Positions 14,994-28,953 of a DNA stretch of 60,830 nucleotides are shown piece after piece. Below the pieces are notes generated by a model. It was given only the letters and a program-made list of their open reading frames with translations. It had not been told where the DNA came from and made no database searches. The first letter of the stretch is position 1, and every line of letters starts with the position of its first letter. The position numbers and the translations under genes are program-made. Source of the stretch: Clostridiaceae bacterium (GTDB taxonomy: Bacteria; Bacillota; Clostridia; Saccharofermentanales; DTU023); the NCBI GenBank assembly GCA_012841145.1, contig DUVH01000008.1, forward strand, positions 1 through 60,830. The letters are read 5' to 3'.

Positions 14994-15121
14994 AGCCTGG
15001 CGTCTTTAAAATCGCCTTTTTCTTCGTTAACCGTTCAGTCTGGCGTCTTTAAATTCGCCTTTTTCTTCGTTAACCGTTCAGCCTAGCGTCTTAAAAATCG
15101 CCCCTGTCTTCATTTACGGTG
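14994..15121. repeat. Triplicated gene 3' end, 43-bp period
   Basis: Three units begin at 14994, 15037 and 15080. The rightmost contains the last codons and TAA of the minus-strand TPR-like gene. The other two lie downstream of the stop and repeat it with few changes, but the stop triplet reads AAA there. The period is not a multiple of three. Confidence 0.88.
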
Positions 15122-16554
15122 ATGACGTCTTCGCCGCCGGGCGTTGTTACGGATCTCAGGGTAAGCGTGTAGATGTAATTGGCCTTTAGCGTAAAGATAT
15201 CGCTGGTGTCGCTGGCCAGTAATCCTTGATAGACGCCTTCATCTCCGAACATATCAGTCTCGCCGAACCATGGGCCGAAGCTGTAGGCCGCTTTGATTTT
15301 GTAATCATCTGGCGGAATCTTGATCTGTGCCTGATCTCCGGCATTGATAAAGACGCAGGAGACGAGCGTGCCGTCCGACGTGTAGATCTTGACATATGTT
15401 TTGCTACCATCGCTCTTTGGCGGAACAATCTTGAGCGTACAGCATGTTCCCGTGTAGTCATCGTTTCGATATACTTCTCCCGTGCGCGGGTTAGCGACGG
15501 TGCAGTCGGAGGAGAGCGTCGGGGAATCTTGAAAGTCTCCGAGTTCCTTGAAGATCTTGTAGGCGTCATAATTCTTGCCCGCTGTCAGCAGTTCCTGGGC
15601 GGCTAGGTAATCGCCCATGTTGTCGCACTCGCTGATCAGCTCGTCTCTTTCCGGAATGATCGCGGAGTCAAGCGGGAGAAGCAATTCCTTGGCGGCAACA
15701 TAGTCACCGGATTCCATGAGTAATTTTGCTTCGGCGTAATCTACTTGTGCACTGCTCTGTACTGCGAGCTGACTTGCATCCCGGTAATCCCCGGCGCTTT
15801 TGAATAAGGTTTCGGCCTCTTCATAATTGCCCGCATCGAACAAGGCTAACGCTTTCTCGTAGTTCAAGACCTTTTGGCACTTGGCCGCGAGCGCGGAGGA
15901 ATCTTTGAAATTTCCGAGTTCTTCGAATGCATTGATCGCCTCATTGTAGCGACCTGTATTCATTTTTTTGACGGCGCTTTCATACTCCAATCCTTGTTTG
16001 GCAAGCTTAGACTTGTCTTTTGAATCATTAAAGTCCTTTAGTTCTTCAAAAATCTCCAACGCTTCCTCGTATTCGCCTTTTTCCAGCAAGGTCGCTCCTT
16101 CGTCGTAGCGCACCTGTTTTTTCTTGTTACTCAAGGAAATCGGTATCAAGACAGCCGCCAAGATGACGACAAGTGCGATCGCGGCGATCAGAAGAATCTT
16201 CATAGTCTTCTTCTTTTTCTTCGGAGCGGGCGGCGCCGGATAATCCTCATAACGAGGCGCCTGCGATCTCGCCATTTCGTTATAAGGTTGCACCTGTGGT
16301 GTCACGGGTGGAGTTTCCGTTTTATAAGTGTCCGGGGGGGAGACCTCTTTTTGTACGGACTCTGTTTCCGGCGCCGCTGCTTCAGGTTTAGCGAAAATGG
16401 GTGCAGCAGACCTGATGTGGCTATTTGTACCATTTGCCTTGACTTCGCTCGCTTCCGGAGCTTGGTCGGGTTGTATGTCTTCTATATCTGTGCCGCAAAA
16501 AGGGCAAAACTGTGAATCTTGCGGTAAGGACATCCCGCACTTATGACAAAACAT
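15091..16554 (-). CDS. Zinc-ribbon membrane protein with TPR-like repeats
   Basis: 487 residues. An N-terminal zinc ribbon (FCHKCGMSLP...FCPFCG, residues 2-20) is followed by a Pro/Glu-rich linker and one transmembrane helix near residues 118-140 (KILLIAAIALVVILAAVLIP). A run of about five degenerate repeats follows, of the form G-x-Y-x-E-A-x-x-x-F-E-x-L-x-D-F-x-D-S, about 35-40 residues each. The C-terminal 110 residues form a probable beta domain (CTLKIVPPKSDG...TLTLRSV). The zinc ribbon should be cytoplasmic and the repeats outside. It follows the next membrane gene by 17 bp, so the two are probably co-transcribed. Its last codons are triplicated downstream. Confidence 0.8.
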   Translation of the reverse strand: MFCHKCGMSLPQDSQFCPFCGTDIEDIQPDQAPEASEVKANGTNSHIRSAAPIFAKPEAAAPETESVQKEVSPPDTYKTETPPVTPQVQPYNEMARSQAPRYEDYPAPPAPKKKKKTMKILLIAAIALVVILAAVLIPISLSNKKKQVRYDEGATLLEKGEYEEALEIFEELKDFNDSKDKSKLAKQGLEYESAVKKMNTGRYNEAINAFEELGNFKDSSALAAKCQKVLNYEKALALFDAGNYEEAETLFKSAGDYRDASQLAVQSSAQVDYAEAKLLMESGDYVAAKELLLPLDSAIIPERDELISECDNMGDYLAAQELLTAGKNYDAYKIFKELGDFQDSPTLSSDCTVANPRTGEVYRNDDYTGTCCTLKIVPPKSDGSKTYVKIYTSDGTLVSCVFINAGDQAQIKIPPDDYKIKAAYSFGPWFGETDMFGDEGVYQGLLASDTSDIFTLKANYIYTLTLRSVTTPGGEDVITVNEDRGDF

Positions 16555-16571: not shown

Positions 16572-18533
16572 TTACATTCCTCTAGGCGGATATTGGTAAG
16601 GATGTTGTTGATATTGGTATGCGTAAGGTGTTGCGATCGACGGAGCTAAGTCGGCATCCCAAGCGCCTTTTATGGAGAACCATGTGATCATCGGGTTAAG
16701 AAAACCGATGATCGCGGCGATCATCTGGGAAATGTAATGCATTTCTCCCATAAGCACGGCAGGAATGAAAGCTGAAGTAAAATGCCCCATCAGCGCAATA
16801 TACGTACTGAACAAGACGACATACCACCCCAAACGTCTTCCCGCGATCAACATGATGAAACCTACAAGGGCGGCAATGCTCATGAACAGATGTGATGAGA
16901 AGAAGGGGATTGTACGGGGCATAGCGCGGGGAATCATGAGCATCAAGATGGAAAAGGCCATACCTGCCGTGCACAGCCAGCACCAAACGAGTCCCCAGCC
17001 CGAGAGTTTTATGCGTTTCGTTCTCATGGTGGAAAGTCCATGAAGGGCAGGAGGTGTAAAGATGAGGGTTGCCGCTGTCAACATGCTGCTGAACAGGAGG
17101 ATGAAGATGCTGGTAAAATTCCTGAGGATAGCGGGAGCGAAAATGAGTGTGACCACGATATGGAGCAGCATGCTCACTAACGCCGTAAAGGAAGCTACGC
17201 GCCAAACTTTACTTTTTCCCAAAGCACCTGACACCACGCTGTTTGTGCCGTCACGGTAAACCGGTTGTCCTTGTTGGCTGTCTTTTAAAATATTGGCAAA
17301 TAGCAGCGCACCGCCAACCGTTGTTATGACGCGCAGAGCGATCGTTACAATTGCGAAGGTGTCAAATTCGTTTGCGTGTACCTCCACAGGATAGGGGGGA
17401 ATGGCCGGCAATAGATAATTGATAACCGTCACCAGCAGGCCGCCAAACGTTGTACAGGCTGCAAAGATTTTGGCTTTTGAACCTTTTTGCATGAACAGAT
17501 AGATACTTATGCCGTAAAGGGCGCTTGCGATCACACCTGTAACAGCGTTGCAATAAGGGAGACGAATCCCCACGAAACGCTGGATAATAGATATGATGAA
17601 CCATGCACCGAAGAGCCAAAGGCCTGTCCATACGGCACGCATGGGTTTTGCCTTAAGCGGAGCCGCTTTTTGTTGGGTCGACATCGCCGTTTGTTGGGCA
17701 GGCATCGCCGGTACGCCGGGTGCGAATCCTGGCTGCCACGTACCGGGTTCTGTCGGGGGCGGAGAGGGTGCAAAACGCCGCGTACCGCATTCCGCGCAGA
17801 AGACTTCGTCATCTTCCAACGGCGTGCCGCACTTGTGGCAGAATGTTGGTCGCACGCTTTGCTGTTGTACGCTTGCCGCCTGATACTGCGGTGCTGCGCC
17901 TTGTTGGACTTGCGGCGGTGAAGAAACAGGTTGCCCTTGCATTGGTGCAAAGGGTAGGGACAGGCCGATCGATTTTTCAGGCAGGAAACGATTGATCTTA
18001 AAGAATATCTGAGCCTGAGCTCCTGCAGCTACTTCAAATGTAAAAGGCGGCAGTTCCGTGCCGTAGCTGTCCGTTGCGACGAGAATGTTCTGCCTCTGAT
18101 TCGTCGTGACTGTCATTGCTTTGCCATTTCCGAGACTCCCGACTCGTTGACCGTTCAGCGTAAATGTCCACGAAACGAGCGAGCTCACCATGCTGCTCTC
18201 GCGCACAATCGTTATGTTCGCGGGGTAGTCGAGGTATTCAATGTTCGCGGCTATATTTTGGCTGATCACCTCTGCGGGAGCGACGTAATCGCCGCGCTTG
18301 CAGTTTTTCGCGATGAGGTATGAAGTGAGACCGCCGATCGCCGCCATGACAATGGCGATCAAATATGTTGTTATACCTAAATTTGCCGCAAAGCCGATCG
18401 CAATGCCCAAAAGTTCGAGCCCTACCCACAGGATGACGGTGAGCGCGGCAAATCCGCCGGGCTTACGTCCGCGAGCAACGGCATTTTTCTTGTTGACATT
18501 GACCAAAACCATGATTCCCAAAATTTCTAACAT
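16572..18533 (-). CDS. Multi-spanning membrane protein with internal zinc ribbon
   Basis: 653 residues. Two N-terminal transmembrane segments (ALTVILWVGLELLGIAIGFA and the following helix) lead into a beta-rich segment (ANIEYLDYPANITIVRESSM onward). A Gln/Pro linker with a zinc ribbon comes next (FCHKCGTPLEDDEVFCAECG), and then about nine hydrophobic segments to the C-terminus, which ends in a Tyr/Gln/Pro-rich tail. I chose ATG 18533 because AGAGGAAAG precedes it. The longer frame upstream has no start signal. The ribbon resembles that of the next gene, suggesting a shared assembly. No family function is recognised. Confidence 0.75.
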   Translation of the reverse strand: MLEILGIMVLVNVNKKNAVARGRKPGGFAALTVILWVGLELLGIAIGFAANLGITTYLIAIVMAAIGGLTSYLIAKNCKRGDYVAPAEVISQNIAANIEYLDYPANITIVRESSMVSSLVSWTFTLNGQRVGSLGNGKAMTVTTNQRQNILVATDSYGTELPPFTFEVAAGAQAQIFFKINRFLPEKSIGLSLPFAPMQGQPVSSPPQVQQGAAPQYQAASVQQQSVRPTFCHKCGTPLEDDEVFCAECGTRRFAPSPPPTEPGTWQPGFAPGVPAMPAQQTAMSTQQKAAPLKAKPMRAVWTGLWLFGAWFIISIIQRFVGIRLPYCNAVTGVIASALYGISIYLFMQKGSKAKIFAACTTFGGLLVTVINYLLPAIPPYPVEVHANEFDTFAIVTIALRVITTVGGALLFANILKDSQQGQPVYRDGTNSVVSGALGKSKVWRVASFTALVSMLLHIVVTLIFAPAILRNFTSIFILLFSSMLTAATLIFTPPALHGLSTMRTKRIKLSGWGLVWCWLCTAGMAFSILMLMIPRAMPRTIPFFSSHLFMSIAALVGFIMLIAGRRLGWYVVLFSTYIALMGHFTSAFIPAVLMGEMHYISQMIAAIIGFLNPMITWFSIKGAWDADLAPSIATPYAYQYQQHPYQYPPRGM

Positions 18534-18687
18534 AGTCTTTCCTCTTTTCTCTTGCCGCCACACAATTTTGAGGCGGCTACATCTGTACTGATAAAGCTTC
18601 GTCCGAGTTTGCCAGCGTCTACTTTTAACGAAAACACTTGGCATTTCGGTGGTGATGATGGAAGTATAAACGGAATAAAGTCGCCGG

Positions 18688-18854: not shown

Positions 18855-19075
18855 ATTACTCTTCGAGTCCGCGCTGTCAGAATCATGGAAGTCATTATGG
18901 CATATTGAAGGGGCATCCGAGTATTACTCTTCGAGTCCGCGCTGCCAGAATCATGGAAGCCATCGTGACATACTGAAGGGGCATCCGAGTATTACTCTTC
19001 GAGTCCGCGCTGTCAGAATCATGGAAGCCATTGTGGCATATTGAAAGGGCATCCGAGTATTACTCTTCGAGTCCG
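18855..19075. repeat. Gene 3' end repeated with exact 68-bp period
   Basis: ATTACTCTTCGAGTCC occurs at 18855, 18923, 18991 and 19059, exactly 68 bp apart. The last occurrence encodes the final Gly-Leu-Glu-Glu-stop of the minus-strand pseudokinase gene. The first three are downstream copies whose whole units are about 90 percent alike. Each copy keeps the TAA. Confidence 0.92.
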
Positions 19076-20583
19076 GCGTTGTCTGATCCGTTTACTCGGA
19101 CGCGCCACAGCTTACCGTCGTTGTCCATGTTCTGGTAGAAGATCCACTGTCCTGCAACGTTGAAAGAACCTGTTCTTTCGCAAACGACGGTGTAGCGCAT
19201 TTTGCCGTCAAAGGACAGCCATTCGAGCGTTCTGTCGTTGCCTGAAACGTAAAAGATACCGCCGTCCGATACATTGGGAGAACGTGCGGGCAGTGTCGTC
19301 AAGCGTTCAGGATTTCCGCCGTTCAGATCCATTCGGGTGAGGCCGTTTTCTGTGCCGGCATAGAGTTTCTCTTCGTAAATGCAGAAGCTCTCGTAGGAAT
19401 TGCTGCTGACCAGCATATCGTTTCCGCCGTCGAGATCACATCGGTAGATGCTGTTTCCTCGATCGGGGGCGATGTAATAGAGTTTTTCACCTACGATCTG
19501 CAAGGAAAGATAGTCCATCGCTCCGTTGAGCTGCGTCAGCTTTTTGTCGACGGGATCGATCTTGTACAGATAGAGGGTTGCGTTGTTATATAGATAGAGA
19601 GTGTTATCAAAAATATAGAACTGTCCCGTATGAGAATCACACAGCACGTCCTCCCGCATCGTTTTGGGGTCGATGCGCAGAACCTTCTTGTCTGTTGCAT
19701 AGTAGAGCTGACCGTCATAGTAATGAAGACTGTCGGCGCCGGAATCCTCCACGAGGATTTTCAGCTCTTTCGAATACGGATCCATCTTATAGATATTGTC
19801 ATTCAGCAGGACAAAGACGCTGTCTTCGCTTCGGACGGCGAAAGCGTCGTTTTCCGCTCCGAGGTTTCCGTTAAGATTTCCGTTCTCGGCGTCAAAGGAG
19901 GGGCCGCTCAGGCCGATTCCGGGCGCGTCGGCAAAACCCTGCTCATAGCCGCCGGCGTAACCTGAGCTGTAACCGGCCGATTCACCCGCCCTTGACCCTC
20001 GCATTCTTCCCCTTTCCCAAAGGATGTAAAAGATGCCTAGCAGAAGACCGACAATGACGAGAAGCAGCAAGACGTACAAGATTTTTTTACGCGATCCGGC
20101 TACACGTCTGATGGCTTCAAGCAGTTTGCTCGTGTTTTGCATTCGTTTTTTCGGATCGAATGCGATACAGCGGTCAATGAGAGAGAGAAGAGAACGATCT
20201 CCGATAACGGTCTCGATGTCCGTTTTCTTTTCTTTGCCACTTGCCATGAACAACATCAGCATGCCGAGCGCGTAGACGTTTGCCTCCTGTGTGTCCGGGT
20301 TGCTTCGATCGAATTCCGGAGGAAGATAGGATTCCATGGCGGAAAGCGGAAGGCTGCGATCAGCCAGCCGAACGTCTCCGTCAATGTTGACAATGACACG
20401 TTTCGGATGAATATATTCCCGTTCTCCTGTCTGTGCTTTGCCGTTCCTGTCATCGAGAAGAAGACACAGACGCCGAATGATGTAAAGGATGTCATTCGTC
20501 CGCATCACGCCGTCTTCGGAAACGATTTCGTATACCGAACGCTCTTCTACCTCTTTCCATTTGAACCGCATTTTCTTTCGCAT
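19060..20583 (-). CDS. Pseudokinase-transmembrane-DUF5050 beta-propeller protein
   Basis: 507 residues. Residues 10-160 align with the C-lobe of the kinase in the neighbouring large protein (RSVYEIVSEDG; NVYALGMLMLFMASG; LIDRCIAFDPKKRMQ). The whole N-lobe is absent, HRD is replaced by HPK and DFG by ADR, so it cannot be an active kinase. A transmembrane helix follows at about 168-189, then a Gly/Tyr-rich juxtamembrane stretch and a DUF5050-type propeller of YxxD/YRCDLDGGN repeats on the outside. GGAGG before ATG 20583 overlaps the preceding gene's stop region. The upstream open frame is the shifted end of that gene. Probably a duplicate of its 3' half. Confidence 0.85.
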   Translation of the reverse strand: MRKKMRFKWKEVEERSVYEIVSEDGVMRTNDILYIIRRLCLLLDDRNGKAQTGEREYIHPKRVIVNIDGDVRLADRSLPLSAMESYLPPEFDRSNPDTQEANVYALGMLMLFMASGKEKKTDIETVIGDRSLLSLIDRCIAFDPKKRMQNTSKLLEAIRRVAGSRKKILYVLLLLVIVGLLLGIFYILWERGRMRGSRAGESAGYSSGYAGGYEQGFADAPGIGLSGPSFDAENGNLNGNLGAENDAFAVRSEDSVFVLLNDNIYKMDPYSKELKILVEDSGADSLHYYDGQLYYATDKKVLRIDPKTMREDVLCDSHTGQFYIFDNTLYLYNNATLYLYKIDPVDKKLTQLNGAMDYLSLQIVGEKLYYIAPDRGNSIYRCDLDGGNDMLVSSNSYESFCIYEEKLYAGTENGLTRMDLNGGNPERLTTLPARSPNVSDGGIFYVSGNDRTLEWLSFDGKMRYTVVCERTGSFNVAGQWIFYQNMDNDGKLWRVRVNGSDNAGLEE

Positions 20584-20596
20584 ACGGTATCGCCTC

Positions 20597-23500
20597 CTAA
20601 GGCGCGGGATGGTCGTTCGAACCGTCGAGCCTGACACACCACAGCTTGCCGTCGTTGTCTTCGTTGTGATAAAAGATCCAGTCTCCTGCAATATTGAAGT
20701 CCGTAACGCGGTTGTTTGATATTTTCTCTCTGATACGTCCGTCAAAGGAAGAACGGTTGATTGTCCTGTCCGCCAAGTCGATGAAATAGATACCGTTTTC
20801 CGTGACGTTAAGCGTCGCAGCATCGACTTCCAGAAGCTTTTCCGATTCTTCCGTCGCCTTGTCTACCTTGAATAACCCTCCCGAATTGCCGTCATGGATT
20901 GAACAGAAGAGATCGTCTTCGAACAGGCAAATACTATTAAACGTTCCTTTTGCCATTTTCGTTGGACGATTCCCGGTCGTATCGCTGCGGTAGAGAGCGT
21001 GATCGGTTTCGCCGATGAAATACAAGTTTTCACCGTCCGTGTTAAGAGACTTGCAACGAGAGGGGAGATCCTCGAGCGCGGTTGTCTCTCCCGTCTTTAC
21101 GTCGAGCAGATGAAGAGCGTCCTGCCCGCGAATATAAAAGAGGTCTTCCGCGACAAAGAGCTCACCCGATACTTCTCTGGATAAGATGTCGCTATCCAGC
21201 GTATAGATGCTTGTCTGCATGATCATGTCACCGGAGGAATAGTAGAGCCAGCCATTCCTGTAACTGAGCGCCGAAACATCCGTATTCTGAATGATCAGTT
21301 CATTTTCCATGCCGTTTTCGGACATGCGCCGGATGCCTCCGTCAGTGATATAGAAGAGAGGTCCTTCGCTCTGCGCCGCAAAAGCACCGCCGGCAACAGC
21401 CATATTTCCCGCATCACTGCCTCCTTTTGTGGCGATCTTCTGCGTGTTCCGTCGGAAAACAGGCGATGCATTGTAGCCGTCCGTATAGCCATTGTCGAAG
21501 CCGCGTGCATAGCTCTGCTTTTCCGCTCGACTTCTTCCCGTCAGAAAGCCCGCACCAAAGAAAAGCACGGACAGAATGACGGAAACGACGAGTAACGCCG
21601 CTGCCGCAATGAATCCGCGTTTTCTTTTCGATGCGGGGCGTCTGTGGTCGTGGAGAATATAGTTTCGGATCGCTTCGGCGCTCTGGATGCGTGCTTTTGG
21701 ATTAAAGGCGATGCACTGTTCGATCAGGATGCGGAGCCTGTTGTTAACGATCTGGGCCTCCAAATCCGATCTCGCCGTTCGACCCGTGGCCAAAAACAGC
21801 ATTACAACGCCGAGAGAGTAGATGTCGGACAACGGTGTCGTCTGTTCGAATCCGTACTGCTCGGGGGAGGCATAGTCAAGCGTCAAAACGACGGCGGTAT
21901 CGTGACGACGCTCTTCTTTGTGTATCCTGGCTATGCCGAAATCGATGAGATGGATGCTACCGTCTTTTCCGGCGATGATGTTCTGAGGTTTAATATCGCG
22001 ATGGATGACGGGCGGAATCTGTGCGTGCAGGTAGCTGAGGATGTCTGTGAGTTTCAGCGCTATATCGAAAATGTCGTTGGCCGAGAGGCTCCCGCCCGTC
22101 GAAACAATTTCGTAAAGAGAGCGACCTTCAAGATATTCACGGATTAGAAAGTTCCTTCCATCCTTTTCATAAGAGGTAAAGACTTTTGGAATGCCCGGGT
22201 GATCGAGTCCTGACAGCAATTTGGCTTCCTCGAGGGCGTCTTCTTGAGGATAATCTTTCGTGATCCTGAGCAACGCCTTTTTGTTGTCTTTTTTCCTTCG
22301 CAGGATATACAGCTCTTTTTTGCCGTCAGGTTCTTTCCGAAGACAGCTTTCAATGAAATAATCGGAGAGAATTTCATCAGGCATGTCCTCGTCAAATAAC
22401 GAGACCTCCAGCGTCTCCCTGTAGGACGCGAGAAAACGCTCGATGTCTCTCGACGGTATGCCTTCGCTCGGCAGTTCATCTGTCATTTTCGAATAAGACA
22501 TACCGCCTCCCGTGTCCGGGAGATAGAGTGCTCCGGAGCTTTTCATCATGGCGTCACTCAATTCTGTAACCTCCGTTCCCGCGATGACTTTCGTTCTCTT
22601 GGCAAAACGGCCAAACAGCTGTGGTGTTAGCAGTATAGGGACGAAAATGGCACAAAAGAGGATATAACAATACGTAAATTTCGTCATCGGTTCAAGTCCC
22701 TGATTTGTAAGAAGAAAAATTCCTCGGTCGAGGCAAAAGAAGACTAAAACCGGCAGCCATAAGTTTTTTCGCGTATAGTCGGCCAGCAGTTTCACGCCGC
22801 CGGCAAAACTGTATTCCAACTCATCCACGTTAGTGGAGGGAAAGGCTTTTACGTTCTTTTTTATTTTGTTTACCAGATACCGGAAAGTACCTGCAAGAAA
22901 GGAAAAAGAATGAGCGACGAAAGAAAGAGCGATTGTGAATGTATGAATGAATGTTTCAGATTGTTCTTTAGGGAGTCGACGTCGCATAACCAAACTTCTC
23001 AGGAGAGGAAAAAACACAAAACAGGCGGTGCAGGAAAGAAAACCTGCCCACAGGAGATAAACATTTCCGAAATAACTCTCGATAAGCGCCGTGGGAAGCA
23101 ACAGTACTTGGTTGACGGCGGAAAAGAAGTATAAGGTCATGTAGAGAATATCGCAGGCGCGAGTTTTTCCCGGTACAACCGTCCCGTCAAACATCATTTC
23201 TAACAGACCGTAGGCGTATCGGCGTTGTTTACATGTCTCTTCCGTGAACGTCCTGCTGGCGTATTCGGTGAATTCCAGTCCGTGCAATTGGGCGTATTTG
23301 CCGTGATAGCCCAAGCTGTAAAGATTAATCGCTTTGTCGTAATCTTCAGAGACTCTGTCTTCCGCCCAGAGACCGCTCTTCTCAAGTATGCTCTTGCGAA
23401 GGAAAACGTTATGGCCGACGAGCGGAACGAAAAAACCCTGCATCGCTTTGCATGGCCAGAAATTGTGAAATAAATTGTTGACCTGATGTCCGGTGGCGTA

Positions 23501-24421
23501 GGTGAAGTAATTTTCATATAAATTGCAGGCATTCGTCGCGCACTGCACGTAAGCGAGTCGTTCATCGAGAGCAAATTCGGGGAGAATCGCCTCAATGATT
23601 CGCTCGTTTACGCCGGAATCTTTGTCGAGTAACAGGATTACCTCATGTGTCGTGATGTCTCCCTCCGCATAGCCTCCCTCGAATGCGCCGTCTGTCTTGA
23701 CGAGTGTTTTCAGCGGGACACCGCTGTTTACGGCGTTGCCGAGTCGCAATGTATAGTTGAGGTTTGAAGCCTTTTTGAACAGTCCCGCTCTCCCGGCAGC
23801 GGGACGAACGACGAAAGAAATCCCGTGCTTCCTGTAAAAGAAAATGCGCTCCAACGCCTTCTTCTCAAGCGGTGTCAGTTTCGCAACATCTTTCCTGTAA
23901 GCTTGAATCAGTCGATCGATTTTTTCTTTTGTGCAATTGCCTCCGAGCATCGGGGCGAGCCCGTCATCGGATACAAGAACATTGGCTTCTCTATAACTGA
24001 CTGTCCGATAGCGCCTCACGGCTGCGAGGCTGTCTCGCAGCGTTTGGAAAATAATGTCGTTACTTTCTGTATGAACCGGGATACTGACGGTAACGTGAAA
24101 GAGCGAGTCAGGATCGAAATCCTTTTGCACCGTATTCATGTAGTATTTTCGGTTGATTTTCGTCTTTCCTGAAAGGATGGCGCAGACAGACGGCCTGAGA
24201 GACCACAGCATATCGGTGACGTAATACATGGGGTAAATGAAGAAAATAAACGAGAAAAAAAGACGGGAAAAATATCGCCATGTCTGTCCGTAAAGAAAAA
24301 AGAGTGTTGCGTGCATAGCGGCGTTGACAATGAGAGCGACAACGTAGGGACGGACACCGCATACGCGATTCCCAAGAACTTCCGGGACTTTTCTTGTCTT
24401 TTTGACTCGTCTTCGTTGCAT
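20597..24421 (-). CDS. Glycosyltransferase 2 - Ser/Thr kinase - DUF5050 propeller fusion
   Basis: 1274 residues in one frame. Residues 1-610 form a processive-type family 2 glycosyltransferase. Its motifs are SDDG (151-154), DKDS (266-269), the SED acceptor motif (358-360) and QRRY (399-402), with transmembrane clusters near 25-70, 425-515 and 555-600. Residues 690-925 form a protein kinase: HRDIKPQN at 807-814, DFG at 827-829, SPE at 852-854 and a lysine near 716. A helix at 936-960 crosses the membrane, then YARGFDNGYTDGYN and a DUF5050-like propeller (about 1020-1274). All kinase catalytic residues are present, so activity is expected. It begins 10 bp past the lipoprotein gene. I know of no described protein with this order. 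Confidence 0.88.
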   Translation of the reverse strand: MQRRRVKKTRKVPEVLGNRVCGVRPYVVALIVNAAMHATLFFLYGQTWRYFSRLFFSFIFFIYPMYYVTDMLWSLRPSVCAILSGKTKINRKYYMNTVQKDFDPDSLFHVTVSIPVHTESNDIIFQTLRDSLAAVRRYRTVSYREANVLVSDDGLAPMLGGNCTKEKIDRLIQAYRKDVAKLTPLEKKALERIFFYRKHGISFVVRPAAGRAGLFKKASNLNYTLRLGNAVNSGVPLKTLVKTDGAFEGGYAEGDITTHEVILLLDKDSGVNERIIEAILPEFALDERLAYVQCATNACNLYENYFTYATGHQVNNLFHNFWPCKAMQGFFVPLVGHNVFLRKSILEKSGLWAEDRVSEDYDKAINLYSLGYHGKYAQLHGLEFTEYASRTFTEETCKQRRYAYGLLEMMFDGTVVPGKTRACDILYMTLYFFSAVNQVLLLPTALIESYFGNVYLLWAGFLSCTACFVFFPLLRSLVMRRRLPKEQSETFIHTFTIALSFVAHSFSFLAGTFRYLVNKIKKNVKAFPSTNVDELEYSFAGGVKLLADYTRKNLWLPVLVFFCLDRGIFLLTNQGLEPMTKFTYCYILFCAIFVPILLTPQLFGRFAKRTKVIAGTEVTELSDAMMKSSGALYLPDTGGGMSYSKMTDELPSEGIPSRDIERFLASYRETLEVSLFDEDMPDEILSDYFIESCLRKEPDGKKELYILRRKKDNKKALLRITKDYPQEDALEEAKLLSGLDHPGIPKVFTSYEKDGRNFLIREYLEGRSLYEIVSTGGSLSANDIFDIALKLTDILSYLHAQIPPVIHRDIKPQNIIAGKDGSIHLIDFGIARIHKEERRHDTAVVLTLDYASPEQYGFEQTTPLSDIYSLGVVMLFLATGRTARSDLEAQIVNNRLRILIEQCIAFNPKARIQSAEAIRNYILHDHRRPASKRKRGFIAAAALLVVSVILSVLFFGAGFLTGRSRAEKQSYARGFDNGYTDGYNASPVFRRNTQKIATKGGSDAGNMAVAGGAFAAQSEGPLFYITDGGIRRMSENGMENELIIQNTDVSALSYRNGWLYYSSGDMIMQTSIYTLDSDILSREVSGELFVAEDLFYIRGQDALHLLDVKTGETTALEDLPSRCKSLNTDGENLYFIGETDHALYRSDTTGNRPTKMAKGTFNSICLFEDDLFCSIHDGNSGGLFKVDKATEESEKLLEVDAATLNVTENGIYFIDLADRTINRSSFDGRIREKISNNRVTDFNIAGDWIFYHNEDNDGKLWCVRLDGSNDHPAP

Positions 24422-24430
24422 TTCTCAGAC

Positions 24431-25717
24431 TTATTCCGATACGCGAATAAAGGGATTGTCGTCCAGCTGAGCGAGGGCGAGCCAGCCGGTCGCGCTGATA
24501 CTCTGCACGTTGTTGAACTCCCAAAGTATATCCGTGCCGACGACGGCGAATCCCGTGGAAACACCGTCCCTGTCAGCAGCGGGAATGCTTCCGTCCTTGG
24601 CGGTCTGAGTCTCCAGATACGCCATGATCCTTTCATACTTTTCCGTGTTTTTCAGCTGTCGATAGCAGATGGCTATCTGAGCCGTTCCCTCATTCCAGAT
24701 ACCATCCAGATCGCCCGCGCTGAAATCGAAACCCTCGCCCACGGCCATCCGTTCTTCTACGAAAGATATCGTACGATGTCTGTTTTCCAGCTCCTCGCCG
24801 AGGATAAGACAGGCGAGGCTGTTTGCGTCGAGCGGTATGATCCCTTTGCTGATCGTGATTCCGTCAGCCGTTGTTCCCGTATAAAAACAGTGATATTCAT
24901 CGTCATACATGGAGAGAACGAAATCTTTGGCGTGCTTTGCCGCTTTGGCGCAGATATTCGATTGGTCCTGATCAGTGTCTTTCAAAGATTCAGAAAGAAC
25001 GGAAAAAGCGGCGACGAGACTGATGTTATGTTCTGTAGATTTGTAGGTTGCCTTCAACTGCGAATCATCCCAACCTTCGTAGCCCGCCGTGAATCCGCCG
25101 GTGTCCGATTTTAGGCTGAGCACAAACTCCGCCGCGCGAATGGCGGCGGTAAGGTATGCCTGTCGCTGCGAGTCTGACGCATTTTCAGCTGCTGTGCAGA
25201 GCGCGAGGATCGCCCAAGCCATGTTGCCTGTAGAGGTTGAAACGGTAAAGGAATCCTCCTGCCAGTGTCCGTCTTTCCAGAATCCTGGCAGTCGTACCGT
25301 GATTTTTCCCGCGGCGATGGAGCGCCCCGATTGACTTTTGGGGTCACCTTTGAGATAGGCGTTCCGAAGCCTTCCATCATGAAAAGTACGGTCGTGTTCC
25401 TGCACAAAGACGATGGCGTCAGCAATTTTCTCAGCGTGCCACTGCGCGCCCGCATAAGACAATGCGATGGCTGCGACGGCATTATCGTATAAATACGCGT
25501 AGTCGGATGCTTTATCTCTTTGTTCATCCGAGCCGATGAAACCTTCGTGTTTTTCTACCATGGAGGCCAAGAATCCGGCTGCTTTTGAGACGGCGGATAC
25601 TTCCGTTGATGAGGGGGTGATGTTCTTTGAAGGACTGCAGCCGGCAGAAAATATGGCAAAGATAATCATCAGAGAGAGCGTTATGCGCATCGTTCTTATC
25701 TTTTTGTTCAGATTCAT
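24431..25717 (-). CDS. Lipoprotein with probable alpha/alpha-barrel glycosidase-like fold
   Basis: 428 residues. The signal peptide ends at the lipobox FSAGC (Cys about residue 27). The mature protein has repeated helical pairs with motifs of carbohydrate-active alpha/alpha toroids: SDYAYLYDNAVAAIALSYA, STGNMAWAILALCTA, TEHNISLVAAFSVL and a late GIWNEGTAQIAICYR. I infer a glycan-trimming or binding role beside the glycosyltransferase, but the family is not certain and catalytic acids cannot be assigned. ATG 25717 is preceded by GGAGG. The longer frame upstream has no such signal. It leads the operon of the fusion protein, 10 bp apart. Confidence 0.75.
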   Translation of the reverse strand: MNLNKKIRTMRITLSLMIIFAIFSAGCSPSKNITPSSTEVSAVSKAAGFLASMVEKHEGFIGSDEQRDKASDYAYLYDNAVAAIALSYAGAQWHAEKIADAIVFVQEHDRTFHDGRLRNAYLKGDPKSQSGRSIAAGKITVRLPGFWKDGHWQEDSFTVSTSTGNMAWAILALCTAAENASDSQRQAYLTAAIRAAEFVLSLKSDTGGFTAGYEGWDDSQLKATYKSTEHNISLVAAFSVLSESLKDTDQDQSNICAKAAKHAKDFVLSMYDDEYHCFYTGTTADGITISKGIIPLDANSLACLILGEELENRHRTISFVEERMAVGEGFDFSAGDLDGIWNEGTAQIAICYRQLKNTEKYERIMAYLETQTAKDGSIPAADRDGVSTGFAVVGTDILWEFNNVQSISATGWLALAQLDDNPFIRVSE

Positions 25718-25856
25718 TAATAACCTCCACACGAAAGCATCATCATCGGCTTTATTCCCGGCTTGTGCTGTCAAGACCTCGATCCTCTCCTGCAAAAAGG
25801 TTTTACTGTCAGGTGCGGACGATGTCTGCGCTCTGCAAACAAGGACAGCGCCACGC

Positions 25857-26312
25857 TTATTCAGTTCCGTCCGATAGCGGGGTGAGGTCGAGAGAAGTCA
25901 TAAAGTCATACGTTTGGTAGTTGTCATAGCCGTGATTGATGGCAAAGATAACAGCTGCGTCGCGCTTGATCAAGGGGTGAAGCGCTCCGCAACGCGTGAC
26001 GGACAACATCCTCTGTGTCGTCCTGAGGTCCAGCGACATGGCGAGGGCAATCTGCAGGTAGTAATCCCTTTTCCCGAGTCGCCTCCCTTCCATCAGCTGG
26101 TAACCGTAAGTGCGGGAGAGGTTTGCTTTCCTGATGATGTCGCTTTTTTTCTGCCCCGTTTCTTCCAACAGAGCATCAAAAAAATTGCGGATATCGTCAT
26201 CGAGAAATGCATCCCAGTCTTCCGGGAAGGAGTCACCTTTCAACTTCTCCTGCATGTGTATCGTATCAAGAAGAGGCTTATAGTTTGTATCGTCCTTTTT
26301 GCTGTTCATCAT
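25857..26312 (-). CDS. XRE-like DNA-binding regulator of the kinase locus
   Basis: 151 residues. A helix-turn-helix is visible at mid-protein (KKSDIIRKANLSRTYGYQLM, followed by EGRRLGKRDYYLQIALAMSL). The C-terminus has the RDAAVIFAINHGYDNYQTYDFM segment, which I recall from small XRE-like proteins next to Ser/Thr kinase genes in Clostridia. AGGAAA precedes ATG 26312 and an ATG also follows at 26309. The upstream extension in the frame is unsupported. It lies 140 bp before the lipoprotein gene on the same strand and is the likely local regulator. Confidence 0.75.
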   Translation of the reverse strand: MMNSKKDDTNYKPLLDTIHMQEKLKGDSFPEDWDAFLDDDIRNFFDALLEETGQKKSDIIRKANLSRTYGYQLMEGRRLGKRDYYLQIALAMSLDLRTTQRMLSVTRCGALHPLIKRDAAVIFAINHGYDNYQTYDFMTSLDLTPLSDGTE

Positions 26313-26581: not shown

Positions 26582-27946
26582 TTAGATCTCTGCTTTACGG
26601 AGCATGTCGTCGACGCATTTGCGAGCTTCGTGGGCGATTTGTTCTTCGTCGATGCCGATGAGTATGCCGTCATGTGAGACGAGGACACCGTTCACATAGA
26701 CAAATCGCGCTGGCTTGGAGACGCCTACGGTACCGAGAAGATTCGCCGCATCATTCTCGGCGCACACGAACTCCAGTGAAGAAGTATCGATTGCGAACAA
26801 ATCTGCCGCCTTACCAACTTCTAGGCTGCCGATATCGTCGCGCCCCAGGATTGCCGCGCTACCTTTCGTAGCGATTTTTAAAATATCGTATCCTGATGGG
26901 GCTTTATCGGACCACGTAAGCCGATGCAGCAAGTATGCGCTTCGGATCTCCGCCAACAAGTTGGAGCAATCATTACTTGCGCTCCCGTCAACGGCGAGTC
27001 CGACGGGGACTCCGAGCTCCAACATCTCGGGGACTTTGCAGACGCCTGATGAGAGCTTCATATTCGACACGGGGCAGTGCGCGACGCCCGTGCCCGTATC
27101 GGCAAGTCGCTGCAGCTCGTTGCTGTTGAAGTGAATGCCGTGAGCATACCAGACATCATTGCCGATCCATTCACAGCTCTCCATGTAATCAAGCGGCCTG
27201 AGTCCGAACAAGTCGAGGCAGAATTGTTCTTCGTCATACGTCTCGCAAAGATGCGTGTGGAGTCTGACTCCCAGTTTCCGAGCGAGGCGCGCAGATTCTC
27301 TGAGCAAGTCAGTCGTCACGCTGAAAGGCGAGCAGGGTGCGAGAGAGATTTGCCTCATCGAAAAGGGCGACGGATCGTGAAATTTGCGCACGAGTCGTTC
27401 GCTATCTTCAAGAATCGTCGTGATGTCTTGGACAAGGTCATCGGGCGGAAGTCCGCCGTCACTTTTTCCTCTCGACATGCTCCCGCGCGTTGCGTGGAGG
27501 CGGACTCCGAGTGCTTCCGCTGCATCGAACTGCCTGTCAATAAAGCGTTCAGATCCTTCTTTCGGAAAAACGTAGTGGTGATCCATCGCCGTAGTGCATC
27601 CGTATCTGACGAGCTCGCCCATGGCGGTTAGTGAACTGTAAAAGATGCACTCATCATCCAAGTGGCGCCAAATCTCATACAGCGCCGTAAGCCAAGGAAA
27701 CAATTCCAAGTTCTGCACTTGCGCAAGATTTCTCGTGAACGTTTGATAGAAGTGATGGTGTGTATTGATGAGTCCCGGATAGAGAATAAGGTCACTCGCG
27801 TCGATGATACGATCAGCATCAACATCGTCGTGCCCAATGTAATCGATCACGTTTCCCTTGATTCGTAAGTTCGCATTGAGCAAAACACGGTCAGCCCCAT
27901 CTACCGTTACAATAGCCTTGGCATTTTTAAATCGCGTTGTATTCAT
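26582..27946 (-). CDS. Amidohydrolase, 8-oxoguanine deaminase / TRZ-ATZ type
   Basis: 454 residues of the amidohydrolase superfamily. The metal ligands are visible as GLINTHHHFYQT, LHTHLCETYDEE, the AHGIHF histidine and VDGSASNDCSN. Together these match 8-oxoguanine deaminases, which turn 8-oxoguanine into urate. A related reading is an SsnA-like aminohydrolase linked to molybdenum hydroxylases, in line with the MocA genes at 8-10 kb. ATG 27946 is preceded by GGGGA. The frame extends upstream without a signal. It is divergent from the Crp-type regulator at 28216. Confidence 0.85.
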   Translation of the reverse strand: MNTTRFKNAKAIVTVDGADRVLLNANLRIKGNVIDYIGHDDVDADRIIDASDLILYPGLINTHHHFYQTFTRNLAQVQNLELFPWLTALYEIWRHLDDECIFYSSLTAMGELVRYGCTTAMDHHYVFPKEGSERFIDRQFDAAEALGVRLHATRGSMSRGKSDGGLPPDDLVQDITTILEDSERLVRKFHDPSPFSMRQISLAPCSPFSVTTDLLRESARLARKLGVRLHTHLCETYDEEQFCLDLFGLRPLDYMESCEWIGNDVWYAHGIHFNSNELQRLADTGTGVAHCPVSNMKLSSGVCKVPEMLELGVPVGLAVDGSASNDCSNLLAEIRSAYLLHRLTWSDKAPSGYDILKIATKGSAAILGRDDIGSLEVGKAADLFAIDTSSLEFVCAENDAANLLGTVGVSKPARFVYVNGVLVSHDGILIGIDEEQIAHEARKCVDDMLRKAEI

Positions 27947-28215
27947 ATTATTAGTCCCCATCTTAAAAACAAAAAGAAATAGTCGCAGACGGCATATCGC
28001 GCATACGGTCAGAGACATCTCCTGTCCCGTGTACGAGGCAGTTTCTCGGCAACTTGTCGAGAGCTTACGGGATCGCCTCACGGCACAATTCAATTTTACC
28101 AGTATTCTGAGTATAAAATGTATAAGTATTGCGTGGTGAACTGCACGACAAACGGCTCGTTTTTTGTTATTCTATTTAATGGGTTTATATGTATTGAATC
28201 GAGGAAATCACTTGT

Positions 28216-28953
28216 ATGAAAAAAATATGTGAAACGATGGCATTGTCTCCGCTTTTCGCAGGGTTGGATCACGATATCTATCATGTGCACTGTGAAAATA
28301 CCCCCATTCATACGTTCTGGAAAGGTCAGCTTATCGTAATGGAAGGTGACCTTTGTAAGGGAATCGGCATCGTAATTGAGGGCCGGATCGCGCGTCAGAA
28401 ATACACTCCTTCGGGCGAGTTTACGACGCTTGAACTTCTGGGTGAGGGTTCCGTCTTCGGCGAAGATCTGATTTTCTCGACTCAAAAACAGTTTTCATAT
28501 TCTCTCGAAGCTTTGACGCACGTGAAAGCGATTCAAGTGTCGCGTGAGGATATCCTCGCTCTCATCTCGAAGAGTCCGCGTCTGCTGCTAAATTACTTGG
28601 CGCTTCTCTCGGACAGGAGTCTGGAGCAGGATCGTAGGATTCATCTCCTCTCACAGAAGACTTTACGTTTGAAAATCTCAGGTTATCTGCTAGCTCTCCT
28701 TGAAGAAAAGCTTACTAAAGAGGGCAAAATGCTCAGAGAGGCGCTGGAAGGATCTGCCGCGATGTCAGTCGAGTTGCCCGTCTCGAAGGAAGTCGTCGCT
28801 CGCCTGCTCGCGATGCCGCGACCCTCTTTTTCGCGCGAATTGATCAGCATGGAAAAAGACGGACTTGTGCGCGTAGACGGGCGCGTCGTGTGGCTTGAAG
28901 ACATTCAAGGGTTGGCGTGCGGTCTTTATGAAGATTGCGGGGTTGAAGAGTGA
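28216..28953 (+). CDS. Crp/Fnr family transcription regulator
   Basis: 245 residues. The N-terminal cyclic-nucleotide-like beta-roll (QLIVMEGDLCKGIGIVIEGR, then LGEGSVFGEDLIF) is followed by a long dimer helix and a C-terminal winged helix with the recognition segment SVELPVSKEVVARLLAMPRP. There is no Fnr-type cysteine cluster, so the signal is probably a small molecule. GAGGAAA lies 11 nt before ATG 28216. It is transcribed away from the amidohydrolase gene, which is a possible target. Confidence 0.88.
   Translation: MKKICETMALSPLFAGLDHDIYHVHCENTPIHTFWKGQLIVMEGDLCKGIGIVIEGRIARQKYTPSGEFTTLELLGEGSVFGEDLIFSTQKQFSYSLEALTHVKAIQVSREDILALISKSPRLLLNYLALLSDRSLEQDRRIHLLSQKTLRLKISGYLLALLEEKLTKEGKMLREALEGSAAMSVELPVSKEVVARLLAMPRPSFSRELISMEKDGLVRVDGRVVWLEDIQGLACGLYEDCGVEE

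Follow-up and report, generated by a model that had tools for sequence, protein, structure and literature searches.

Bacterial polymer synthases that carry a built-in regulator are already known, and their control in cis is known mainly through cyclic di-GMP (c-di-GMP) and the PilZ domain. In the cellulose synthase BcsA it is established that the gating loop is controlled via the C-terminal PilZ module (PMC10374906, PMC11470070), and RiGT2, the mixed-linkage glucan synthase of Romboutsia ilealis, requires its C-terminal module for activity (PMC10374906). In Bacillus subtilis EpsB/EpsE, a kinase phosphorylates a glycosyltransferase encoded in its own operon (PMC4262085). Here we describe a locus in a 60,830-nucleotide stretch of contig DUVH01000008.1 from a Clostridiaceae bacterium (the whole of this stretch is the window below), in which one gene encodes a 1274-residue protein, P0001, that joins a family 2 glycosyltransferase (GT2), a Ser/Thr kinase and a beta-propeller.

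The closest likeness is to BcsA and its partner BcsB. Both systems have a GT2 enzyme of the processive type, a regulator fused behind the last transmembrane (TM) helices, an FxxT segment at a similar distance and a glycosidase or glycosidase-like partner, which is the periplasmic BcsZ there and a toroid lipoprotein here. They differ in that P0001 carries kinase, TM helix and propeller in place of PilZ and KQxRY in place of QxxRW, that no BcsB-like gene is present, that the lipoprotein is unrelated to BcsZ by sequence, and that the match to BcsA is weak. RiGT2 is likewise a clostridial GT2 enzyme with a C-terminal module, but it has PilZ and QxxRW, and neither kinase nor propeller. Receptor kinases of the PknB/StkP type, and clostridial leucine-rich-repeat (LRR) kinases linked to helix-turn-helix (HTH) proteins, share with P0001 the order of cytosolic kinase, one TM helix and outside sensor, and the LRR kinases share the HTH neighbor as well. 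Unlike them, P0001 has its kinase in the middle of an enzyme, a DUF5050 propeller as sensor and a degenerate N-lobe. The EpsA/EpsB-EpsE system resembles it in placing a kinase and a glycosyltransferase target in one operon, but that kinase is a tyrosine kinase of another fold, the proteins are separate and there is no single-chain synthase. LanL, LanKC and the TOMM kinase-cyclases also join a kinase-like domain to a biosynthetic enzyme, but in those proteins it is the peptide product or the pathway on which the kinase domain acts, and they have no synthase, membrane channel or propeller; NCBIfam matches of P0001 to these fusion families lie below the cut-off. The first-pass annotation, made from the letters of the window, knew of no described system with this order. 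We too found no description of it in the open-licence literature, including that on DUF5050 and on the Butyrivibrio GT2-GGDEF-EAL protein discussed below, although it may be described elsewhere.

A synthase, a kinase and a propeller in one chain

The domains of P0001 follow one another in a single frame, as the first-pass annotation had proposed. Pfam places Glyco_trans_2_3 (PF13632) at residues 261-470 (E = 1.5e-22), then Pkinase at 722-895 (1.4e-32) and finally DUF5050 (PF16472) ending at 1270 (6.2e-26; 91.7 bits against a cut-off of 27), all above cut-off. Hydropathy indicates TM segments on both sides of the cytosolic GT core, two before and four after it, and one more at the junction of kinase and propeller (residues 934-964), so that the propeller should lie outside the cell. 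The topology predicted from the sequence thus comprises a cytosolic GT2 core with a membrane channel, a cytosolic kinase, a TM helix and an outside propeller.

The same architecture is found in other genomes. Full-length orthologues with 59-75% identity and the same domain order occur in six further genomes from this order, and searching named genomes with the GT2 domain as query returned 37 loci, duplicates being removed and each locus scored on its own domains before counting. Synthase, kinase and propeller were scored in one frame at 22 loci outside the window. These span Bacillota and Actinomycetota, with two records from the latter, and include isolates (COT-073 and OH1046), and we therefore reject an assembly artefact. 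The frame is broken within the synthase in two of the 22 (L049, L053), and at a 23rd kinase-type locus (L046) the break lies ahead of the propeller; errors in draft genomes and decay are both possible causes. In the tree, two Coriobacteriia rows are nested in a Bacillota group, which suggests transfer. The synthase was found in 1 of 398 genomes of the phylum (its own) and the lipoprotein in 4 of 391 genomes of the class; the architecture is therefore rare.

The GT2 motifs of P0001 read VSDDG, LLLDKDSG, GHN, SEDYD and KQRRY. All the usual acidic motifs had been claimed for this domain, and the D, DxD and ED motifs (VSDDG, DKD and SED) are indeed conserved in more than 30 homologues. QxxRW is absent, KQxRY standing in its place, and the close family reads [KR][QE]xRY throughout. 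Profile searches with the synthase place solved cellulose synthases nearest, with a weak match (E = 6e-4), and hhalign probabilities are 78 for BcsA, 25 for PgaC and 1.8 for OpgH. An OpgH-like glucan synthase, suggested by GHN and K/RxRR[WY], was not adopted in view of these values. A search of PDB with a GT2 profile from seven rows gave no match. Related GT2 domains lie mid-chain with long, unassigned flanks in Elusimicrobiota proteins of 1700-2000 residues (L062:5220-11228, L063:2855-8059, L064:5922-11153).

Two features bring the C-terminal part of the synthase close to BcsA. The segment FPSTNV, a candidate counterpart of the gating loop, sits 129 residues past KQRRY, and FNVTAK of Escherichia coli BcsA sits 124 past QRIRW; F527, T530 and V532 are invariant in 20 homologues, in which the segment has the pattern F.[SAT]T.V. 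The kinase starts about 50 residues beyond the last synthase TM helix, which is the position of PilZ in BcsA, and PilZ itself was not found in the Pfam scan of P0001. By analogy, we infer that the kinase may be the positional counterpart of the c-di-GMP-sensing PilZ domain.

The kinase and the proteins encoded beside it

The kinase had been called complete. HRDIKPQN, LIDFG and SPEQYGF are intact in P0001, and the 24 aligned orthologues keep HRD[IL]KPQN, DFG, [SP]PEQ[YF]GF and the alpha-C Glu. The N-lobe is where the description fails: the Gly-rich loop is missing, the Pkinase match begins only at profile position 38, and beta-3 reads ALLRIT, with Arg for Lys. Most orthologues read LLRIT here and six read LLKIT or similar. 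Such an N-lobe might mark an inactive nucleotide-binding switch, like KSR or EssB, that passes the propeller signal or the ATP level on to the synthase purely through its shape, and the paralogue encoded next to P0001 is clearly a pseudokinase. We consider this unlikely. A dead domain should have shed some of its catalytic residues, yet the HRD Asp, the catalytic-loop Lys and Asn, the DFG Asp and PEQ are kept in all aligned orthologues, and the beta-3 Lys in six of them. Conservation of the catalytic residues thus argues for activity, and the degenerate N-lobe urges caution. The closest paralogue of the kinase is an LRR receptor kinase of the same genome (43% identical; L027:6712-8460), in favor of a receptor-type kinase built into a synthase; in four relatives (L023-L026) the corresponding gene is found downstream of the operon, two genes away.

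The pseudokinase-propeller gene starts near 20583, directly behind the stop codon of the gene for P0001, the 587-residue open reading frame including a wrong-frame overhang. Its product is 31% identical to residues 758-1270 of P0001, lacks the N-lobe and has lost HRD and DFG. Its sequence marks it as a paralogue, placed in tandem, of the part of P0001 that comprises kinase, TM helix and propeller; a paralogue had been proposed. Repeats of the GFxxGYxxGY type occur just outside the membrane in both P0001 (about 21440-21530) and the pseudokinase (about 19890-19990), and they could be a pairing element, perhaps a helix.

The lipoprotein gene starts near 25717, preceded by GGAGG, and encodes the lipobox SAGC. 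An AlphaFold model from 33 homologues has a mean predicted local distance difference test score (pLDDT) of 88.7; it was substituted for an earlier, poor model from seven rows (pLDDT 65), the matches of which were not used. Foldseek matches of the model are (alpha/alpha) toroid glycosidases, phosphorylases and epimerases, with E down to 6e-10 and a TM-score of 0.6, in accord with the toroid motifs first noted in the sequence. No Pfam family scored above cut-off and no convincing sequence match was found in PDB. Identification as BcsZ/GH8 was rejected, there being no sequence similarity. E161, E236, E350 and D116 are invariant in the 33 rows and are candidate catalytic residues. The model is consistent with a likely glycosidase or transglycosylase working on the emerging chain, and of the two roles first suggested for the lipoprotein, trimming the product is better founded than holding it, by virtue of the glycosidase-like fold. 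Outside the window, 33 of the 34 loci with a synthase of the close family also have the lipoprotein, which makes it the synthase's constant partner.

The HTH protein had been read as an XRE-like regulator. The HTH is present, but its genomic company assigns it differently. The family occurs in 54 of the 391 genomes of the class, and at 22 of 28 loci that lack this synthase (L071-L098) it lies within 1.5 kb of a Ser/Thr kinase, against a chance expectation of about 1% based on four kinase matches in the 1.57 Mb of its own genome. Such pairs occur throughout Clostridia, with the two genes reading the same way or divergently, and at least two of the partner kinases have LRRs. None of the seven operon-type HTH members scanned matches a Pfam family. 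The recurrent adjacency points to an HTH protein that belongs with the kinase, and not with polysaccharide synthesis as such, and that is probably the transcriptional output of the kinase.

Two gene units and a proposed control position

A dedicated same-strand operon holding these genes, with starts corrected, stands as first proposed, and HTH, lipoprotein and pseudokinase-propeller recur as neighbors in other genomes. Their occurrence divides the operon. Among loci of the close family outside the window, the lipoprotein is found at 22 of 23 with the kinase and at all 11 without it. By contrast, the HTH protein is present at 22/23 kinase-type and 0/11 kinase-less loci, and the pseudokinase-propeller at 21/23 and 0/11. 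The operon is thus two units, one of synthase and lipoprotein and one of kinase-propeller, pseudokinase-propeller and HTH protein. Two kinase-less synthases (L041, L043) group with the kinase-bearing L037 and L052 in a clade of 100/100 support, so that in their case the regulatory genes have probably disappeared together, with synthase and lipoprotein retained. This strengthens the view that the kinase module acts as a removable regulator of the synthase-lipoprotein pair.

Information could also flow the other way. The kinase would then read the state of the synthase, through the chain in the channel or the product outside, and phosphorylate the HTH protein and other targets, so that the fusion would sense polymer synthesis and set transcription accordingly. 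The HTH-kinase pair is widespread without the synthase, so that the ancestral output of this type of kinase was probably the HTH protein, and loss of the kinase is always accompanied by loss of the HTH protein. We nevertheless regard this direction as doubtful, for synthase and lipoprotein remain where the kinase is missing, and what occupies the same position in Butyrivibrio looks like control and not reporting.

In four Butyrivibrio genomes, two identified by Pfam scan and two by homology and length, a GGDEF-EAL module is fused behind the synthase in place of the kinase (L056:2360-8052, L057:7938-13369). Judged against the motifs that we take to be canonical, this module lacks GGDEF and several EAL catalytic residues, and it is more likely to be a c-di-GMP receptor than an enzyme. 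In Ohessyouella blattaphilus (L047:6627-12543), lipoprotein, synthase, histidine kinase and response regulator lie in a row, the start of the histidine kinase gene overlapping the stop of the synthase gene.

The Butyrivibrio operon also bears on the nature of the product. It includes a preceding gene for a sulfatase-fold membrane protein, and its lipoprotein homologue carries a GDPD domain. Families of both kinds handle glycerol- or ethanolamine-phosphate groups in other systems. The GT2 product might accordingly be a glycolipid, or a glycan bound to the wall or decorated with phosphoglycerol, in place of a free exopolysaccharide, and the system one of cell-wall homeostasis. Neither domain is present in the operon of the window, however, and the GT2 enzyme retains the length and TM layout of a processive synthase, so we think this improbable.

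The positions of all features are collected in the table. Proteins related to the two zinc-ribbon products encoded downstream were found by clustering near the operon in 12 other loci (multi-TM protein) and 13 other loci (TPR protein). A WG beta repeat protein of about 900 residues is encoded downstream of the operon in L025 (L025:16477-19170), with proteins of similar size at the corresponding position in both L023 and L026. Upstream of the operon in the window are an amidohydrolase and a divergent Crp/Fnr-type regulator (26582-28093, 28216-28953), which lie outside the conserved set. A riboswitch search of the window returned a single tRNA only, and a promoter scan of the window gave nothing above shuffles.

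Table. Positions in the window of the operon, the parts of P0001 and the downstream genes.
Feature	Position	Strand	Size or residues	Basis or remark
P0001 fusion gene	20597-24421	-	1274 aa	single frame
GT2 processive synthase domain	22607..24421	-	1-605 of P0001	Pfam, motifs, hydropathy
FPSTNV segment	22826..22843	-	527-532 of P0001	candidate counterpart of BcsA gating loop FxVTxK
Ser/Thr kinase domain	21644..22456	-	656-926 of P0001	Pfam, alignment of 24 orthologues
Single TM helix	21530..21622	-	934-964 of P0001	hydropathy maximum 2.89
DUF5050 beta-propeller, predicted extracytoplasmic	20600..21406	-	1006-1274 of P0001	Pfam
Pseudokinase-TM-DUF5050 paralogue	19060..20583	-	507 aa	downstream of fusion gene
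Lipoprotein, (alpha/alpha) toroid, glycosidase-like	24431..25717	-		AlphaFold, Foldseek
XRE-like HTH protein	25857..26312	-	~150 aa	ATG at 26312/26309; alignment
Zinc-ribbon multi-TM protein, downstream	16572..18644	-		Pfam Zn_Ribbon_1
Zinc-ribbon, TM, TPR protein, downstream	15091..16554	-		Pfam

A possible mechanism and its meaning

The best reading of the locus is a secreted-polymer synthase with an exchangeable control position, here holding an HTH-linked receptor kinase. For P0001 itself this would mean a processive enzyme, embedded in the membrane and ordered like BcsA, that makes and exports polysaccharide and in which a receptor-type Ser/Thr kinase controls the synthase in cis; we put the probability of this at about one half. 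Outside the cell, the propellers of P0001 and of the pseudokinase would associate with each other and bind a ligand, perhaps a wall glycan or the polymer itself, and this would change the state of the kinase. The kinase would open or close the synthase in cis, either through a conformational change or by phosphorylating it close to the gating-loop-like segment. It would also signal to the HTH protein, by which transcription would be adjusted. The lipoprotein would trim, release or transglycosylate the emerging chain.

Several observations weigh against this. Proven processive enzymes have QxxRW where P0001 has KQxRY, the synthase matches BcsA weakly in profile searches (6e-4), and no BcsB-like gene recurs among the clustered neighbors of the synthase loci. 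Arg in place of the beta-3 Lys and loss of the Gly loop abolish activity in many kinases. Ligand binding by the propellers and control of the synthase by the kinase are, moreover, steps that we infer.

More tentatively, P0001 could be a feedback machine in a single chain, which makes and exports a polysaccharide, senses its product through the propeller and adjusts itself via the built-in kinase. The control position, filled by a receptor kinase, a c-di-GMP receptor, a neighboring two-component system or nothing, would then make phosphorylation and c-di-GMP interchangeable inputs.

We conclude that the fusion architecture is real, recurrent and rare, and that it represents a means, apparently undescribed, of coupling polymer production to a signal from outside. 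It points to an unclassified family of glycosidase-like lipoproteins that accompanies the synthase, and to a pairing of HTH proteins with Ser/Thr kinases that is widespread in Clostridia and apparently undescribed. With a receptor Ser/Thr kinase at the position of PilZ, and relatives that have GGDEF-EAL or nothing there, the family would allow a comparison of how different signals gate one catalytic core.

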